A stretch of 27,379 nt of DNA from positions 1-27,379 of the IMG/VR virus record IMGVR_UViG_3300037549_000043; one strand, 5' to 3'. This document shows, in pieces, positions 202 to 26,417 of this stretch. The translations under genes were made by a program, and so were the position numbers. This DNA is from a virus. Position 1 is the first letter of the stretch, and the number at the start of each line of letters is the position of its first letter. Under the pieces are notes generated by a model. The model searched no databases, was not told where the DNA came from, and saw nothing but the letters and a program-made list of their open reading frames with translations.

Positions 202-320
202 CGTGTGTCCTTTATGGGTATGTGGGTTATAGTGCCGTCGTCGTGTTGCAGGTAACAGCCGGTGCCGTAGATAAGCATATCCATTTGGTACTTGCGGATT
301 TCTTCGTCGTTGTCAGTCAT
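66..320 (-). CDS. Small hypothetical protein with long out-of-phase overlap
   Basis: Leftward gene of 84 residues. Its ATG (320-318) overlaps the TGA of the lipoprotein gene, the usual coupling in this operon. The first 40 residues look like real protein (start MTDNDEEIRKYQMDM, then a YLQHDDGTITHIPI segment). The remainder, from residue 41, overlaps the next gene by 136 bases and reads like a shadow of it (Trp-, Arg- and Lys-rich). Either this is a true long overlap, or the real product is shorter through a frameshift or a one-base sequence error joining it to the next frame. Function unknown. Confidence 0.5.
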   Translation of the reverse strand: MTDNDEEIRKYQMDMLIYGTGCYLQHDDGTITHIPIKDTRWLTWKIRLKLAWTNSLERLMHLWRQFPKNILSRAHCRRKNWPKK

Positions 321-613
321 TGAACCGTGTAGCCCTTTGACTTCATGCACTTGTCGATATAGGCGTGCTGACCTTGAAAGCTGGAAAGCTGTTCGCTCTC
401 GGCAACCTCGGCGTCGCTGTAATGCCCGTAACCGTAAAGCATCCCGGCGAGGCCGAAGCCGTTTTGCAGGCGATGCTGAATATCTTCCATCTGCGTTGTG
501 CAGGCGTGAAGATCGTCGGCATAGTGTGGCTTGGCCTGCTGGGCTGCCGGTACGTCTGGCTGGTAGCTGGCACATCCGGCCAGTAACAGCGTTATCAATA
601 CGATGCGCTTCAT
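317..613 (-). CDS. Small outer-membrane-type lipoprotein
   Basis: A 98-residue protein with a clear lipoprotein signal: Lys-Arg at positions 2-3, a hydrophobic stretch (IVLITLL) and the lipobox L11-A12-G13-C14. Ala at +2 predicts sorting to the outer membrane in a Gram-negative host. The mature part is soluble, with Cys38 and Cys88 that could pair, and it ends with a YIDKCMKSKGY motif common in small bacterial lipoproteins. The start has a GGAGG ribosome-binding site at ideal spacing and overlaps the upstream stop (ATGA). It is not the o-spanin, which is found in the lysis region. Small phage lipoproteins often block superinfection, but nothing in the sequence proves that here. Confidence 0.8.
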   Translation of the reverse strand: MKRIVLITLLLAGCASYQPDVPAAQQAKPHYADDLHACTTQMEDIQHRLQNGFGLAGMLYGYGHYSDAEVAESEQLSSFQGQHAYIDKCMKSKGYTVQ

Positions 614-1565: not shown

Positions 1566-1595
1566 ATTATAGACATGTCTAGGATAGACAGTCAA
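1566..1595 (-). promoter_or_regulatory. Leftward sigma70-type promoter
   Basis: Read on the minus strand: TTGACT (-35, complement of 1590-1595), an 18-base spacer, then a perfect TATAAT (-10, complement of 1566-1571). It faces the leftward operon, whose first ATG lies about 33 bases past the -10 box. Two TAGACA half-sites lie in the spacer or touch the -10, so a repressor there would block it. Confidence 0.65.
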
Positions 1596-1637
1596 GCACA
1601 ATTTTAGACACCTAGATATAAGGGGTCGATGTGTCTA
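1570..1637. promoter_or_regulatory. Cluster of five TAGACA half-sites (putative operators)
   Basis: TAGACA occurs at 1570-1575, 1585-1590 and 1605-1610, and its complement TGTCTA at 1576-1581 and 1632-1637. The first two form the perfect 12-base palindrome TAGACATGTCTA (1570-1581). The second and third form an inverted repeat with a 3-base spacer. The array spans the divergent gap; its outer members overlap the leftward -10 and the rightward -10. This is the layout of operators for a dimeric regulator controlling both operons. The regulator is not in the window. Confidence 0.55.
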
Positions 1638-1641
1638 TAAT
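1613..1641 (+). promoter_or_regulatory. Rightward late promoter candidate
   Basis: A perfect TATAAT -10 box lies at 1636-1641, six bases before the TerS ATG. At 17-base spacing the -35 position reads TAGATA, a poor match to TTGACA, so the promoter is either weak or helped by an activator. The -10 overlaps a TGTCTA half-site. Transcription would be expected to start at or next to the TerS ATG. Confidence 0.45.
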
Positions 1642-1647
1642 GCACCT

Positions 1648-2202
1648 ATGCCAGATATCACTGATATGGTCACAGCGGGGGAACTGACAGACAAGGAACT
1701 TCGGTTCATTGATGAGTATCTCATTGATTGTAATGGAAGTCGGGCCGCAACTGCCGCAGGATATGAAGGGCCTCACATACGCAGCCACGCGTCGAAACTT
1801 CTACAAAACCCAACAATTTCGCGCGTACTCGCGTTAAAGCGCAAACAGCTTTCTGACGAACGCCACATAACGGCAGGCGTGATTATTGACAATCTCATGG
1901 AAACATACAGCCGTGCGATGCAACAGGAACCCGTGCTTGAGTTTGACCCGGAGGAAAAGGCTATGGTGCCTTCTGGCGAATGGCAGTTTGACGGCAAGAC
2001 CGCGACGCGCTCAATGGAACTTGTCGCTAAGATGTTGGGATATATTGATAGTAAGACAAAGCCCGGCGAAGGCACGGGCAACGGTTTCACCCTGAACATC
2101 ATCACACGGGCGGCGCAGCTTGAAATGAAACAGGCTGGAATTACGATTGACCAACGCGGGGCATTTGTTCCACGTGAAACAATAGGTGAACATCGTGAGT
2201 AA
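1648..2202 (+). CDS. Terminase small subunit (Terminase_2-like)
   Basis: A 184-residue protein. It recognises phage DNA and feeds it to the large terminase during packaging. The N-terminal region (LTDKELRFIDEYLIDCNGSR, then AATAAGY and HASKLLQNPTISRVL, about residues 12-65) matches the Terminase_2 helix-turn-helix pattern, in which an Ala/Gly turn is followed by a tandem helix ending in 'L...P.i...l'. A helical middle part probably mediates ring assembly. A flexible C-terminus follows; its last 8 bases overlap the TerL start. No ribosome-binding site precedes the ATG, and a TATAAT lies six bases upstream, so the message may be leaderless. Confidence 0.85.
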   Translation: MPDITDMVTAGELTDKELRFIDEYLIDCNGSRAATAAGYEGPHIRSHASKLLQNPTISRVLALKRKQLSDERHITAGVIIDNLMETYSRAMQQEPVLEFDPEEKAMVPSGEWQFDGKTATRSMELVAKMLGYIDSKTKPGEGTGNGFTLNIITRAAQLEMKQAGITIDQRGAFVPRETIGEHRE

Positions 2203-3808
2203 TTTCAGCAAGTTATGCGTCAATTACCGCACCAGTGGCGACGTATCGGAAGCATTCTTGCAATCTGATGCGTTCATCCGTGGCATTCGTGGCCCGGTTG
2301 GTGGCGGCAAGACGGTCGTCAACGTTATCGACATGCTCAAGACAGCATCGCTTCAACATCCCGGCCCCGACAAGGTGCGCCGGTATCGCGCCGCGATTAT
2401 CCGCAACACCTACGGGGAATTGAAAACTACCAGCATCAAGACGTTTCACGATTGGGTGCCAGAGGATTACGGCAAGTTTCGGCAGGATGTTCCGATCACG
2501 CACCACATCTTCGACGCGCTGGACGACGGCACGTTCATTGACGCTGAATTCATATTCCTTGCTCTTGACCAGCCAAAGCACGTTAAGAAGCTGTTATCAT
2601 TGGAACTTACACAGGCTTTCATCAACGAAGCCCGCGAAATCCCCAAGGCTGTGCTTGACCATCTGACGATGCGCGTCGGGCGTTACCCGCGCAAAGAGAT
2701 TGGCGGCGCGGTGCGGGCTGGCATCATCATGGATACCAACAGCCCTGACGTAGATCACTGGTGGGCGCTGATGCAGGATCACGCCACGCCTGAAACGCTG
2801 GAAGATAACCGGCGCCTTGAAGGCCAGTTGCGGCAGATGGGTGCCTTGCGTGCCAATCAGCCATTGGTGCAGATGTTCACCCAGCCGCCTGCCGAATTCA
2901 AAGACGGCACGCCAAACGATCAGGCCGAGAACCTAGAAAACCTGCCGGTTGGCTATTACGTCCTTGGCAAGGTTGGCAAAACCCTCGATTGGATCAAGGT
3001 TTATATCCAAAACGAATATGGGTTCGTAATGGATGGTAAGGCGATTTATGAGGGATACCGCGATAACCTGCACTGCGTCGCCAAGATGTATAACCCGAAC
3101 TGGCCGCTGTTCATCGGCATGGACTTTGGGCTGACGCCCGCCGCTGTGTTTGGACAACGGACGCCATTCGGGCAGGTGCGCGCACTATCCGAAATAGTCG
3201 CAACCCGGCTTGGTGCAAAGAATTTCGCCCGTGAAATCAAGGTTCACTTGGCCGAACGTTATCCCGGCGTGACACTCGAAACCTACAATCCTATGATGGG
3301 AGCGACGATCAGCGCAGGCATTGGCGGCATCTTTGGTGATCCTGCCGGTGAGGCTGGCGCACAGACAGACGAAACCACCGTGTTTCAGATGCTTGCCAGT
3401 GAAGGCGTCAAGGCAACGCCAGCGCCTACCAATGACTTTGCAATCCGTGTTGAATCCGTCGTGACGCCGCTTAATCGTTTGATCGACGGCGAACCCGGTT
3501 TAATAATTCATCCCGACTGCAAGGTGTTGCGCAAGGCTTGCCAAGGCGGATATCACTATCGGCGCATTCAAATCAGTGGGGAAACGCGCTATGACACCAA
3601 GCCAAACAAGAATGAATTCTCACACGTTGCCGAAGGTTTACAGTACATGTGTTGCGGCATGGGTGAAGGCAAGGCGGCGGTCAAAGCCGCAATGTCCTTG
3701 CAGACGCAGAACCGACCGGCTTATGCCAACGCTTCCGGCGAGTATCCCGGCCCGCAAAACCCCACACCATATCGTGCGCCTCGTCCTACGTTCGCCACAA
3801 GGGATTGA
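2195..3808 (+). CDS. Terminase large subunit (packaging ATPase/nuclease)
   Basis: The motor that pumps DNA into the prohead and cuts it. I chose GTG 2195 (537 residues) because AGGTGA lies at good spacing; GTG 2186 would add three residues. The Walker A motif GPVGGGKT is at residues 33-40. A Walker B-like TQAFINEARE segment at about 138-147 carries the likely catalytic Glu145. The RNase H-like nuclease domain begins around LFIGMDFGLTP, with Asp310 as the expected first metal ligand. Length fits the 450-650-residue family norm. The Pro-rich tail (about residues 500-537) looks disordered. It overlaps TerS by 8 bases. The exact terminase subtype, and so the packaging strategy, cannot be told from the sequence. 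Confidence 0.9.
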   Translation: MSNFSKLCVNYRTSGDVSEAFLQSDAFIRGIRGPVGGGKTVVNVIDMLKTASLQHPGPDKVRRYRAAIIRNTYGELKTTSIKTFHDWVPEDYGKFRQDVPITHHIFDALDDGTFIDAEFIFLALDQPKHVKKLLSLELTQAFINEAREIPKAVLDHLTMRVGRYPRKEIGGAVRAGIIMDTNSPDVDHWWALMQDHATPETLEDNRRLEGQLRQMGALRANQPLVQMFTQPPAEFKDGTPNDQAENLENLPVGYYVLGKVGKTLDWIKVYIQNEYGFVMDGKAIYEGYRDNLHCVAKMYNPNWPLFIGMDFGLTPAAVFGQRTPFGQVRALSEIVATRLGAKNFAREIKVHLAERYPGVTLETYNPMMGATISAGIGGIFGDPAGEAGAQTDETTVFQMLASEGVKATPAPTNDFAIRVESVVTPLNRLIDGEPGLIIHPDCKVLRKACQGGYHYRRIQISGETRYDTKPNKNEFSHVAEGLQYMCCGMGEGKAAVKAAMSLQTQNRPAYANASGEYPGPQNPTPYRAPRPTFATRD

Positions 3809-3876: not shown

Positions 3877-4338
3877 GTGTCAGTATCCATCCGTCAATGC
3901 TCTGTTGCTGAATTGGAAGCGGCCCCGAACTTCGCGGCGCTGCTGGATGAGTACGCGCAGGAATCCGCCATTGATGGCCTACCACCACCCAAAGCCAAGA
4001 TTGAAACCTACCGGGCGTTGAACAAAGCCGGTGCGTTAACCGTCATTGCAGCGTTCTATGACTTCGATTATGTGGCTGGTTTCATCACGGTTTTGGTGCA
4101 TGACCTGCTGAAATACTCAGAACAGGGCGCAACCTGCGAGGCTTTCTTCGTCGCCAAGGACAAGCGCAAGACCGGCGCAGGGTTCAAACTCAAGGCCGAA
4201 GCCCGACAATTCGCACGCGACAAAGGCGTCGCTGGTTTGTTCTACAGCGCAAAGCCCGGCTCAAGTCTCGATCTGATGCTTTCCATGACGCATGAATGCG
4301 AACACACCAACAATGTTTATTTCGAGGCTTTGCGATGA
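3877..4338 (+). CDS. GNAT-like N-acetyltransferase protein
   Basis: A 153-residue protein from a GTG start. The fold order fits GNAT: an N-terminal helix pair (residues 10-55), strands TVIAAFYDFDYVAGFITVLVH (55-75), a further strand CEAFFVAKDKR (87-97), then KTGAGFKLKAEARQFARDKG (98-117), which matches the acetyl-CoA pyrophosphate-binding loop and helix (motif A, R/K-x-x-G-x-G/A). A final strand VYFEAL closes the domain. GNAT-like proteins at this spot, between terminase and portal, are seen in several podophages; their substrate is unknown. It overlaps the next gene by ATGA, so the two are probably made together. Confidence 0.7.
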   Translation: MSVSIRQCSVAELEAAPNFAALLDEYAQESAIDGLPPPKAKIETYRALNKAGALTVIAAFYDFDYVAGFITVLVHDLLKYSEQGATCEAFFVAKDKRKTGAGFKLKAEARQFARDKGVAGLFYSAKPGSSLDLMLSMTHECEHTNNVYFEALR

Positions 4339-14386: not shown

Positions 14387-17038
14387 ATGGCACAGCTTCC
14401 CGATCTTGTAGGCACCGATCTAGCCAGTGGCCGCAAATTAGCTGCGCCTGATGCGTCGCCGAAAGTCAATACCGGCACGGCTCCCGACGGTATGGGAACG
14501 CCAACGGTTGACGCCCACATGGATGCGACGCCTATCGTGAATTCAGGCGAAGCCGTAGAGAACGCAGCCAATCAGGCAAACCAAGTCGTGATGCAGCAGG
14601 TCGATGCTGCGCAGAAAACTTGGCTGCTTAATGCTTCCGCACAGCACGAATTAGACGCGCAACAGATGCTTTCCAATGCACAGCGCAACGCGGCGCCGGG
14701 CCAAGAGATTACACCTTTGCTTTCGGATGCACTTAACCAGAACATGCAACAGAAGGCCGCGCAGGTTGATAGCCCGCTGCTGGCACAAAACTATCAGAAC
14801 GAAATGACGCGCGCCAATCAGGGTGTTTTGTCGCAGGCTCAAGCGTTTGATTTCCAGCAACGTGATGCAGCGGTCGAGAATAACTTCAAGCAGGGCATTG
14901 ATGCGCAGCAGAAAACATTATCGCTGCTGACCGATCCCGGCCAGATTGAAAGCAAGTTCGGCGAAATGATGAGTGGCGTTAATTCCAACATCGCAAGCCT
15001 GCCGCTGGCGCCGAATGTCAAGTTGCAGTTGCAGGACTACGCCCGCAAGAATCTGACAGATGCAGCCAACCAGACAGCGATTAATCTTGATCCAAAGGGC
15101 TTCCTTGCCCGCAATACCGGGACACCCGCGAGTGCCACGCAGCAATTTGCCAGCACGGCGCCCGGCTCACCGATTGATTTCGTGCAGGCTCAAGAGGGAA
15201 CCGCAACAGTTGCAAACGATGGCGGCAAGGGACTTACAAAGTTCGGTGTCAATCAGGCGGGGAACCCTGATGTGAATGTTGCAAATTTAACGCAGGATCA
15301 AGCGAAACAAATTCTGCAAACTCGTTATATCGACAAGGTTGTGACACCCGGCATGTCGCCACAGATGGCTTTGGTTGCTGGCGATACCGCCGTGAATATG
15401 GGCGTCAGTAAAGCACAAGATTTAATCGCTCAATCTGGTGGCGACCCACAAAAGCTTATTGATTTGCGCCGCGCACAGTATCAGCAGTTGGCACAATCAA
15501 ACCCAGCGCAATATGCACAATATCTGCCGGGATGGAATGCCCGGCTTGATGCTTTGCAGCAACGCTTGCCTGACGTTACACCACGCACCGATCCCGGCGA
15601 TGAACCCGGCACGACGGTGCAGAACATCGGCGGCTGGGCGCCTATGCAGCTTTCGACCTACGATCAGCGCGCAAAGAATGTCGAGTTGGCGCAAAACTAT
15701 AGCGACCAAGAGGACAAGCAGGCGCAGCAGCAGCAGGCGGTTCAGAAAGCAGCGTTTAATTCTGATTTCAATATCGCGCTTAACCGTGGGCAGAAAACCT
15801 ATCAGGATATCGAAAACGCCTATCAGGCTGGTATGATCTCGCCGACACAGCGCACCGAATACACCAAGACGCTTGACGATGTGAACGGCAATAACTTGAA
15901 GGGCATGGCGGCTATGGGCCGCGTACAGGACACGCTGAATGGTACGGGCGTTCTTGATCCCAAGAACGCTGATGATCGCGCTGCCGTGGATCGCCACTAT
16001 GAAGGGTGGTTGCAACAGCAGCCCCAGCCACAAAACGATCAGGACAAAGCTTTACTGCAAGCCAAGGAAGTTGATATGGCTGGCAAATATGGGATGCTGC
16101 CTAAAACGATGGTCGGCGGTTTAGCCGGTAGCCTGCGCAGCAATAAGCCCGAAGATGTGACGAATGCCGCCGGGATGATTAATCAGATTCGGCAAACCAA
16201 TCCTGCGTTGCTATCCGACATTCCCGAAAACGATTTGAAGGGTGCGAACCACATTCAATCCTTGGTGATGGCTGGCTACACGCCTCCAAATGCGGTAGCG
16301 GCTGCGCAACAGGAATTGAAAGTCACCCCTGATGTTAAGCAGTACCGCACCGATGAAGCCGACGCGGCTTTGAAAGATGGCGGCCTTGGCAGCATGGCAA
16401 CCAGTTCGATCAATGGTCAGTACAGCAGCAAAAACCCTCTGAATAACACCGCTGATGTTACGTGGTCGAAGGCTGACATTCCCAGCGACATGAAGGCTGC
16501 GTGGAATGAGGCTTACAAGAATGAATATATCCGCACCGGCAACCCGAACACAGCTACGCAGACGGCAACGGATTTGATTTCAAATACTTATCAACGCACC
16601 AACGTTGGCGTCGGCCCCAATGGCAACAGCACGCGCTGGATGCAATCAGCACCCGAACAATACTATTCCGCGCCGGTAAAGGTCGATCAATCCAAGTGGA
16701 TGAACGAACAGTTGGAAGATGATATCGGCAAGAACACAATTAACCCCGGCACCTTGAAGGCTGAAAATATGCAGCTTGTGCCAAGTGGCAAAACGAACGA
16801 ACAAGGGCTGCCAACCTATAACGTTTGGACAGTTCAGAACGGTGCATCGGTGCCTCTGCAAACCAAAACTGGAAACCTCGAATGGTATCCTGATTGGAAC
16901 ACCAGCAAGGAACTTGATCGTTATAAGGCGCGCGCCCGTTACAGCACCATGACGCCGCAACAGCAAGACGATCAGGACAGGCAGGATTCGCCGATCACTA
17001 CCAAGCTGGGTAGTGCGCTTGAAGGGATGGCAAACTAA
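14387..17038 (+). CDS. Ejection protein with GH108-type muramidase domain (gp15-like position)
   Basis: An 883-residue internal virion protein. Residues 1-240 and 395-883 are Gln/Ala/Asn-rich helical arms, as in T7 gp15. Between them lies a domain matching the GH108/PG_binding_3 pair: FVQAQEGTATVANDGGKGL (264-282) aligns with the 'EGG....D.GG.T..GI' catalytic motif, giving Glu270 as the likely catalytic residue. GDTAVNMGVSKA (332-343) is next, then RRAQYQQLAQSNPAQYAQYL and PGWNARLDAL (361-390), the typical C-terminal 'R..fy..L....p....f..GW..R' motif. It should cut peptidoglycan glycan strands to let the ejection tube through. In T7 the muralytic domain is in gp16 instead. Confidence 0.8.
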   Translation: MAQLPDLVGTDLASGRKLAAPDASPKVNTGTAPDGMGTPTVDAHMDATPIVNSGEAVENAANQANQVVMQQVDAAQKTWLLNASAQHELDAQQMLSNAQRNAAPGQEITPLLSDALNQNMQQKAAQVDSPLLAQNYQNEMTRANQGVLSQAQAFDFQQRDAAVENNFKQGIDAQQKTLSLLTDPGQIESKFGEMMSGVNSNIASLPLAPNVKLQLQDYARKNLTDAANQTAINLDPKGFLARNTGTPASATQQFASTAPGSPIDFVQAQEGTATVANDGGKGLTKFGVNQAGNPDVNVANLTQDQAKQILQTRYIDKVVTPGMSPQMALVAGDTAVNMGVSKAQDLIAQSGGDPQKLIDLRRAQYQQLAQSNPAQYAQYLPGWNARLDALQQRLPDVTPRTDPGDEPGTTVQNIGGWAPMQLSTYDQRAKNVELAQNYSDQEDKQAQQQQAVQKAAFNSDFNIALNRGQKTYQDIENAYQAGMISPTQRTEYTKTLDDVNGNNLKGMAAMGRVQDTLNGTGVLDPKNADDRAAVDRHYEGWLQQQPQPQNDQDKALLQAKEVDMAGKYGMLPKTMVGGLAGSLRSNKPEDVTNAAGMINQIRQTNPALLSDIPENDLKGANHIQSLVMAGYTPPNAVAAAQQELKVTPDVKQYRTDEADAALKDGGLGSMATSSINGQYSSKNPLNNTADVTWSKADIPSDMKAAWNEAYKNEYIRTGNPNTATQTATDLISNTYQRTNVGVGPNGNSTRWMQSAPEQYYSAPVKVDQSKWMNEQLEDDIGKNTINPGTLKAENMQLVPSGKTNEQGLPTYNVWTVQNGASVPLQTKTGNLEWYPDWNTSKELDRYKARARYSTMTPQQQDDQDRQDSPITTKLGSALEGMAN

Positions 17039-21350: not shown

Positions 21351-23291
21351 ATGACTGTCAACCAAGATATTCTGAAATCTGGCCCCTACAACACGGATGG
21401 GACAACGAAGGCGTTCGCCGCCACGTTCCAGTACCTTGAGGACAGCGATATTGTCGTCACGCTGCTGAACACCACCACCGGCGCTTCACTGGTCGGGGTT
21501 CTCAATACCGATTACACGGTTGTTGATAACGTTTCGCCTATCATTGGTGGCACGGTCACGATTGCCAATAATGGTTTTGGTGGCATCGCCAATGCGACCG
21601 GCGTCATTGCCGCTGGCTATACCGTAACGCTGAACCCTGCAATTCCTTTGTTGCAGCAAGAAAGCTACCCCAATGCTGGCCTGTTCCCTAGCGCCGCCGT
21701 CGAACAGGCGCTTGATCGCCTGACCTTGATCTGTCAGGGCCTACAACTTGCCACATCCGAATCACTGAAATATCCAGTGACCGACTCGTCCACAATCTCG
21801 AACGTTTTGCCAAATAGCACCTTGCGCGCCAATTTGTTTTTGGCATTCGATAGCTTGGGCAATCCGATTGCTGCATCTTCTGCCAGTGGCGGCGTGACAA
21901 TTTCAGGGGCAATGATCCCTGTGGTTCAATCGACCACAACCATGTTGGCGACAAAAATTCTTCTGAACGCCACGATTGCCAGCTTGGCTGCCGGGTATGT
22001 TGATACGAATGTGCTTGAGCAAATGACGGGGAACGTCAACAGCTACGCGCAAGAAATTATCCAGAACACAAGCAACGGCACAACCGCTTCGGCTGATTTG
22101 GTTGTAAGCAATAACCTATCAACGGCGACGACATTCTACGGCAATTTCGGCATGAATTCGTCGGGCTTCACGGGAAGCGGCTCGTTCAACAAAGCATCAG
22201 CCGTTTATCTGACAAGCACATCTGGCGACCTTGCTATTGGCACCACGACCGCAAACGCGATTCATTTTGTCTATAATAGCGGCACGACTGATGCGGCCTT
22301 CATCGACGGCACAGGCTTTAACACCATCACGCAGGCCGCGAATAATAGTTCGACGTTGGTTGCCACAACCGCGCAATCCGCGCAGGCTGCGCAGTACAAT
22401 GGCAGCGGATTTATCAACAAGTTTCGTAATGCAAGCTGCACAATCGCACAGCTAGGCACCAGCGGCACAATCACGGCAGGAACGCCCGGCTATACACTTG
22501 ATGGCTGGATAATTGGCTGCACTGGCGCGAATGTCGGTTGGGGCCAAGCATCAGCTATGGCGACAGCACAGCAAGAAGCACCTTGGGCTGTTTTTGCATC
22601 GACTGCTGTCGGCGTTACTGATCTATTCTTCAAGCAGCGTATTGAAAGCGTCGATTGCGCGCAATTAGTTAGCAAACAGGTTACGGTGCAATTCGGCATT
22701 TTCCAGAACACAGCAGGAAGCATTACCCCCACCCTGACAGTGAAACACGCTGGATCGACAGACAACTGGACTTCGCCGGTTACTGATGTAAATGCGGTTT
22801 CTCTACAGGCTTGCGCGCCCAACGTCGTGACGCAGGTTGCCTATACGTTTGCCTGTTCTGCATCAGCATTAAATGGTTTGGAAATCACGGTTGACTTTGG
22901 CGGATCGGCTAACGTTGCTGGCAAGACAATCACGGTAGGCGTTGCCGATATCCGCGCCACGCCCGGCGTCGCCACAGGGTTGAACGCCACGCCACCCGTT
23001 GCTGAAATTCGTCCTGTCGCTTTCGAGTGGACACACAATTTGCGTTATTATTATGCTGCTTCTGGCATTAGCTGGACTGCATATCCCGGTTCCGCTTCTG
23101 CTGGTAATCGGGATATTTACGTTGCTTGCCCTGTGCCGATGCGTACCACACCAACGTGTGCCGGTACATTTGGCGCCGGGGCCGCTACGGTGAACACACC
23201 AACACCTAACGGTGTAGACTTCTTCATCAATGTGGGCAACACGACTACCGTTACTCCACTGACTTCATTTTCGTTTGATGCGAGGTTGTAA
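21351..23291 (+). CDS. Tail fiber/receptor-binding protein with T7 gp17-like N-terminus
   Basis: A 646-residue protein. Residues 1-135 match the T7 gp17 N-terminal anchor that binds the tail: 'Y.tdG....F...F.YL..sdivVtl' (YNTDGTTKAFAATFQYLEDS), DYTVVDN, then PSAAVEQALDRLTLICQGLQ. The middle is Ser/Thr/Asn-rich beta structure, probably a trimeric shaft. Residues about 352-545 (start NKFRNASCTIAQLGTSG, then YTLDGWIIG) resemble the carbohydrate-binding-module-like domain found in many tail proteins. The end (EIRPVAFEWTHNLRYYYAAS onward, 556-646) is the conserved 'E.Rp...E....RYYY' closing domain. It should recognise a cell-surface sugar. Gap and ribosome-binding site suggest separate control. 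Confidence 0.82.
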   Translation: MTVNQDILKSGPYNTDGTTKAFAATFQYLEDSDIVVTLLNTTTGASLVGVLNTDYTVVDNVSPIIGGTVTIANNGFGGIANATGVIAAGYTVTLNPAIPLLQQESYPNAGLFPSAAVEQALDRLTLICQGLQLATSESLKYPVTDSSTISNVLPNSTLRANLFLAFDSLGNPIAASSASGGVTISGAMIPVVQSTTTMLATKILLNATIASLAAGYVDTNVLEQMTGNVNSYAQEIIQNTSNGTTASADLVVSNNLSTATTFYGNFGMNSSGFTGSGSFNKASAVYLTSTSGDLAIGTTTANAIHFVYNSGTTDAAFIDGTGFNTITQAANNSSTLVATTAQSAQAAQYNGSGFINKFRNASCTIAQLGTSGTITAGTPGYTLDGWIIGCTGANVGWGQASAMATAQQEAPWAVFASTAVGVTDLFFKQRIESVDCAQLVSKQVTVQFGIFQNTAGSITPTLTVKHAGSTDNWTSPVTDVNAVSLQACAPNVVTQVAYTFACSASALNGLEITVDFGGSANVAGKTITVGVADIRATPGVATGLNATPPVAEIRPVAFEWTHNLRYYYAASGISWTAYPGSASAGNRDIYVACPVPMRTTPTCAGTFGAGAATVNTPTPNGVDFFINVGNTTTVTPLTSFSFDARL

Positions 23292-25794: not shown

Positions 25795-25974
25795 ATGGCC
25801 GAATCAAAAGATTGGATGCAGCACGCCGTCAAACATCCCGGCGCGCTCACGCGGGCGGCTAAACGGGCCGGGCTGACAAACTCACAGTACGAAGAAAAGC
25901 ACAAGGGTGACTCTGGTCATTCCGGCCAGATGGCACGCTTGGCTATGATATTCAAAAAGAACAGGCCAAAATGA
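25795..25974 (+). CDS. Small basic phage protein (59 residues)
   Basis: ATG 25795 with GGGG a few bases upstream; the stop overlaps the endolysin ATG (ATGA). The protein begins MAESKDWMQHAVKHPGALTR and ends LAMIFKKNRPK. The layout 'W.....k.pGaL.r.A...G......y..k....g..g..ArLa...k' is a widespread small phage protein of unknown role found beside virion or lysis genes. It is very basic with His-rich spots. Translational coupling suggests co-expression with the endolysin. Confidence 0.65.
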   Translation: MAESKDWMQHAVKHPGALTRAAKRAGLTNSQYEEKHKGDSGHSGQMARLAMIFKKNRPK

Positions 25975-26417
25975 TTTGCAACCCACAGGGCATTGCCCTT
26001 ATCAAACGCTTTGAAAGCTGCCGCCTGCAAGCGTATCTGGACGCTGTGGGCATTCCTACGATTGGGTGGGGGCATACTGGCCCGGAGGTTCATCTAGGGC
26101 TTACGTGGACGCAGCAGCAGGCTGACAATATGTTCCTGACTGACTTGATGAACCGGGTTGAAATCCCGCTTAACTCAATGCTTTCAGGATTGGCGAATTG
26201 TCAACTGAACGCGAATCAGTACAGCGCCCTTTGCAGCCTTGTGTACAATATAGGGTCAGGCGCATTTCGCGGTAGTACGCTTCTAGCTGATATCCACGCG
26301 GGCAATCTGTCGGATGTTCCTGCACAATTCTTGCGTTGGGACAAAGCCAACGGCGAGGTATTGAATGGGTTGCTGGCGCGTCGTGAAGCCGAAGCTGCTC
26401 TATGGGATCAGGCATAA
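25971..26417 (+). CDS. Endolysin, GH24 lysozyme
   Basis: A 148-residue T4-type lysozyme that cuts the MurNAc-GlcNAc bond in peptidoglycan. The catalytic triad Glu15-Asp24-Thr30 has exactly the T4 spacing (9 and 6 residues, as E11/D20/T26), within LIKRFESCRLQAYLDAVGIP and TIGWGHT. The C-terminal LCSLVYNIGSGAFRGSTLL and a WDKANGEVLNGLLARREAE (split) region are classic for the family. There is no signal or SAR segment at the N-terminus, so it is cytoplasmic and needs a holin, in line with the candidate upstream. Confidence 0.95.
   Translation: MICNPQGIALIKRFESCRLQAYLDAVGIPTIGWGHTGPEVHLGLTWTQQQADNMFLTDLMNRVEIPLNSMLSGLANCQLNANQYSALCSLVYNIGSGAFRGSTLLADIHAGNLSDVPAQFLRWDKANGEVLNGLLARREAEAALWDQA

Follow-up and report, generated by a model that had tools for sequence, protein, structure and literature searches.

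The gap between two divergent operons at the left of the window (27,379 bases, the entire viral record) is probably an operator array for a phage repressor of the lambda/434/D3 type (CI class); judging from its letters and from comparison with other phages, such a repressor would shut both divergent promoters and would have its gene in the portion of the genome that the record lacks. The gap is 114 bases long, bounded by start codons at 1533(-) and 1648(+), and contains five of the six TAGACA/TGTCTA words of the window packed into 68 bases (1570–1637). Two of these words form a dyad whose sequence is common to the CI promoter gaps of other phages. Features of the region are collected in Table 1.

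Table 1. Genes, promoter matches and candidate operator sites in and around the divergent gap
Feature	Position	Strand	Remarks
Leftward gene 4, 98 aa, probable lipoprotein	317..613	-	weak Rz-like spanin match
Leftward gene 3, ~93 aa	610..891	-	no family
Leftward gene 2, 81 aa	1028..1273	-	no family
Leftward gene 1, 87 aa	1270..1533	-	no family; low-confidence model with three strands and one helix, no HTH
Leftward promoter TTGACT-N18-TATAAT	1566..1595	-	11/12 match
Candidate full operator dyad O1 (half-sites A+B), ATAGACATGTCTAG	1569..1582		13/14 to ATAGACATGTCTAT; over spacer and -10 edge of leftward promoter
Half-site C (TAGACA)	1585..1590	+	adjoins leftward -35 (TAGACAGTCAA; string also in CI gap L040/L311)
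Possible second leftward promoter TCGACC-N17-TAAAAT	1601..1629	-	9/12 match; half-site D overlaps its -10
Half-site D in weak dyad TTAGACACCTAGAT	1604..1617	+	4 mismatches of 12; over rightward -35
Rightward (late operon) promoter TAGATA-N17-TATAAT	1613..1641	+	10/12 match
Half-site E in weak dyad GTCGATGTGTCTAT	1625..1638		3 mismatches of 12; overlaps rightward -10
Terminase small subunit TerS (Terminase_2), late operon gene 1	1648..2202	+	family match
Terminase large subunit TerL (BcepC6B/BPP-1-like podovirus)	2198..3808	+	coding start uncertain; ORF list has GTG 2186

The record is a genome fragment. The genes that run rightward constitute a BcepC6B/BPP-1-like podovirus module for packaging, head and tail, and encode TerS, TerL, an acetyltransferase, portal, scaffold, capsid, tail proteins, internal virion proteins, a fibre and a lysozyme; small genes with no assigned function point leftward from 1533 and, at the far end, from 27255 to 26532. 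The acetyltransferase gene (3877–4335) directly follows that of TerL, an order shared with Methylophilales phage MEP301, and the single late operon carries two lysozyme/endolysin domains, one (14387–17038) inside an 883-residue protein that is probably a virion protein (phrog_315, residues 262–428) and the other (25971–26417) a free endolysin. Genes for CI, Cro or an integrase are absent from the window and gene family searches of the record gave no repressor, in agreement with the sequence-only reading, which had placed the regulator outside it. Leftward gene 1 was considered as the regulator and rejected, having no family and a low-confidence fold that lacks an HTH. An RNA element or tRNA was also looked for and none was found.

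TAGACA occurs in the window at 1570(+), 1576(-), 1585(+), 1605(+), 1632(-) and 22268(-). The total of six is unremarkable against a chance mean of 5.6, but the clustering is not due to chance: the maximum per 70 bases was five, compared with two across 300 dinucleotide shuffles of the window, and no 6-mer reached five copies in 5000 shuffles of the gap. The array described by the sequence-only reading is therefore real, and the same can be said of the perfect 12-base palindrome it had noted (TAGACATGTCTA, 1570–1581) and of the overlap between the outer half-sites and both -10 boxes (two bases common to each TATAAT). The palindrome extends to 13 of the 14 bases of ATAGACATGTCTAT, and a site as good as O1 arose in one gap shuffle in 5000. 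Half-sites A and B form the only full dyad, with C, D and E having poor partners, and the centres of the sites are 15, 20 and 21 bp apart. The rest of the window holds the single further copy at 22268(-), an exact TGTCTATAAT on the + strand (22268–22277) that lies within the tail-fibre gene and has no -35 match.

The 11/12 leftward and 10/12 rightward promoters are the top scores in the first 4 kb, the rightward one tying with one other 10/12 match. The ATG of TerS lies 6 nt past the end of a perfect TATAAT, and owing to this short distance its mRNA is predicted, from the layout of the letters, to be leaderless, which we regard as probable; neither this ATG nor the alternative at 1666 has a Shine-Dalgarno sequence. 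Start codons near the -10 box are also seen for the CI genes of L040, L312 and their relatives.

All five words read TGTCTAnnnT outward, sharing a T at the same later position, and in three of them TGTC directly precedes TATAAT or TAAAAT in an identical register. It is conceivable from this that the word is a promoter element, with RNA polymerase, helped by a special sigma factor or an activator, reading the TGTC upstream of the -10 (TGTCTATAAT), and the palindrome being two such elements back to back; consistent with this, TGTCTATAAT with up to one mismatch occurs five times in the window versus 0.6 expected, with the third exact copy at 22268. This explanation is better supported than the host, packaging-site and other-fold alternatives considered below. 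We regard it as unlikely, however, as the sequences in the -10 position after half-sites B and C are poor matches (TAGGAT and TATCCT), the copy at 22268 is inside a gene with no -35, and other phages have this dyad in their CI operator regions.

Evidence for the last point came from motif scans covering 2.9 million viral contigs (IMG/VR), in which unrelated temperate phages had the 14-base dyad ATAGAC-NN-GTCTAT within their CI/Cro switches, with the register relative to the -10 boxes matching that in the window. A single record matched a scan for the dyad accompanied by another half-site: the 93-kb phage IMGVR_UViG_2900588628 (G001), which has ATAGACATGTCTAT at several intergenic places. One of these is at a distance of 390 bp from a gene for CI (HTH_3 + Peptidase_S24) that faces a divergent Cro-like gene, with the dyad in the same register as in the window, TAGACATGTC[TATAAG]. 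Scanning for ATAGACATGTCTAT alone gave 111 stretches, the majority of which are probably chance matches; a CI HTH-domain profile applied to these loci picked out the independent phages L054, L040/L067 and L072, with CI at most 410 bp from the dyad. In L040/L067 and L054 the dyad lies directly in the CI gap, with a Cro/YdaS-like gene running leftward on one side and the CI gene running rightward on the other, and in L072/L289 it is 408 bp from CI. L040 also shares a longer string with the window, TAGACATGTCTA-t-TAGACAGTCAA compared with TAGACATGTCTA-gga-TAGACAGTCAA (a spacer of one base versus three), and its weaker sites have 3–4 mismatches, comparable to sites D and E.

The association was also examined starting from the protein. 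CI genes were chosen by their recognition helix GI[TS]QPS[IV]N only, yielding six not already found via the motif, and sites with up to two mismatches to ATAGAC-NN-GTCTAT were sought within 200 bp upstream. Five of these six genes had such a site (L312, L313, L315, L317 and L319; L314 was without), against a background of 10/1112 same-size windows at other positions of these contigs. In eight CI genes with different helices, no such site was present. The sites in the CI gaps were usually 24 bp apart and overlapped the -10 boxes of both divergent promoters; in those CI phages seen in near full length they were nearly confined to the CI/Cro gap, with none at terminase genes. No description of an operator ATAGAC-NN-GTCTAT was found in the literature searched. 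On these sequence comparisons, we judge the link between the motif and this CI class to be good.

The gaps of the phages with this helix (L040/L067/L311, L054/L318, L312, L313, L315 and L317) resemble that of the window in having the 14-base dyad, in the position of O1 on the leftward -10 with another site on the rightward -10, and in a rightward start codon very near the -10; L040 in addition has the TAGACAGTCAA string at its leftward -35. They differ in having cI on the right and a Cro/YdaS-like gene on the left, where the window has TerS and the gene of an 87-aa protein without an HTH that no test identified as DNA-binding, and in that the window has irregular spacing and an extra half-site in place of the usual 24 bp. 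G001 and its relatives L288 and L289 have the same dyad, including TAGACATGTC[TATAAG] adjoining the -10, although G001 is a large phage record with operators dispersed over several operons and a TQPT[LI]S recognition helix, and it was not recovered in any search with the window late genes. The immunity region of Pseudomonas phage D3 (434/lambda-type) likewise has 14-base operators in a divergent gap, adjoining an XRE + S24 CI gene, but its operator is ATGGGAATACTCAT-like, its recognition helix is DQTSIS and its spacing is 24 bp. The Burkholderia phage BcepC6B/Bordetella BPP-1 group has homologous terminase, portal and tail modules, whereas its CI/Cro gap is kilobases upstream of TerS, ahead of the gene for DNA polymerase, and it has no TAGACA array.

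The window gap therefore has a dyad-symmetric operator-like site of the expected length of ~14 bp and sites overlapping divergent promoters, as CI arrays do, yet it contains one complete dyad where two or three complete operators at ~24-bp spacing would be typical, and it is not flanked by cI and cro. From its letters, it would appear to work like a CI operator region without being a CI/Cro switch, that is, an array of a known operator kind in an unusual position, before packaging and structural genes.

As proposed, the repressor would be an XRE helix-turn-helix protein that most likely also carries a self-cleaving S24 domain, or else the Cro partner of such a protein, with its gene in the portion of the phage genome absent from the 27-kb record. 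In a lysogen, the repressor dimer would bind ATAGAC-NN-GTCTAT and silence both divergent promoters, acting on the leftward one at the complete O1 dyad and half-site C, and on the rightward TerS/late promoter at sites D (-35) and E (-10); following induction the repressor would be lost, both operons would fire and TerS would then be translated from the leaderless mRNA. The claim of the sequence-only reading that one dimeric regulator serves both operons holds to the extent that the dyad is an operator-like motif of the CI class, but because there is one complete dyad and the other half-sites are weakly partnered, the case for the same protein controlling the rightward promoter depends on half-sites D and E. 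That reading had also seen no LexA box, and rightly so: positions 1534–1647 are without GTTC/GAAC (alphaproteobacterial GTTC-N7-GTTC) and without CTGT-N8-ACAG. The regulator is nonetheless likely to be LexA-like in build (HTH + S24).

The nearest late modules come from an alphaproteobacterial MAG, whose TerL is 58% identical, and from prophages of Cupriavidus, Pandoraea, Trinickia and Achromobacter, with 46–51% identity in TerL. The late genes of the window are 30–51% identical to those of these prophages, which makes a temperate lifestyle plausible. IMG/VR searches with TerL and the 1418-residue virion protein, in a set from which records very near the window may be absent, found no closer relative. 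Among ~160 distant relatives identified by TerL no locus had more than two TAGACA in 120 bases, and their divergent gaps had no common array in what was a crude survey, the gene caller having misplaced the window's own gap; in those distant relatives that possess CI, the CI/Cro gap is located elsewhere. Absence of the array from TerL relatives would fit a scenario in which structural genes evolve more slowly than immunity specificity.

The sequence-only reading had allowed the regulator to be coded by the host as an alternative to the rest of the phage genome. A host protein, or the repressor of another prophage, acting on an operator through which the phage senses its host, would account for the lack of a regulator in the window, but so would the fragmentary record. 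Moreover, across 784 alphaproteobacterial and Burkholderiales genomes there is no enrichment of TAGACATGTCTATAA, its three matches being about what chance would give, and TAGACATGTCTA is missing from six genomes bearing related late genes. In alphaproteobacterial genomes, CI of this class was found only as weak, mostly S24-only matches without an array. We hold a host origin to be improbable.

The position of the array immediately 5' of the TerS gene also brings to mind a packaging site, as cosB/pac sites are usually immediately upstream of TerS in several phages; the TerS of this phage matches Terminase_2, an HTH protein, and might bind the repeats and also repress its own promoter. This is improbable given that the sites overlap both -10 boxes, that distant relatives with a homologous TerS are without the motif, and that the motif is also found at CI genes of phages with no related TerL.

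TAGACA arrays also occur in different phages from those above. In L291 (8843–8880; also L292, L293, L295 and L296) TAGACA-c-TAGACATGTCTA-ctgtt-TAGACATAGACA is just 5' of a RuvC-like resolvase gene, and in phages of this type TAGACA is over-represented genome-wide (G792: 85 versus 31 for the reversed word), including head-to-tail triplets. L294 (7956–8110) has ~12 TAGACA/TGTCTA words in a dense irregular array 5' of a small gene, and in L073 (1516–1795) and L111 (9117–9390) AT-rich TAGACA/TGTCTA arrays are embedded in longer inverted repeats that may mark the end of a mobile element. A repressor dimer with a different fold (ribbon-helix-helix of the Arc/MetJ kind, or similar), binding the hexamers and tolerating irregular spacing, would suit the isolated half-sites of the window, as for proteins that bind short tandem words, and the dense arrays of L291–L296 and L294, but it is very improbable as no proteins other than XRE CI proteins were linked to the motif in this analysis.

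Assignment to a CI-class repressor connects a previously anonymous repeat with a defined class of repressors, with recognition helix QP[ST] and operator ATAGAC-NN-GTCTAT, and predicts that this podovirus is temperate with a late operon under direct repressor control. More tentatively, and as a possibility that we still regard as doubtful, the phage may have relocated a CI-type operator switch, taking it away from cI/cro and placing it at the start of its structural operon, such that the repressor directly silences terminase and the late genes at a leaderless promoter. If true, late genes would be under the direct control of the repressor, as opposed to being controlled only indirectly via an early gene product.
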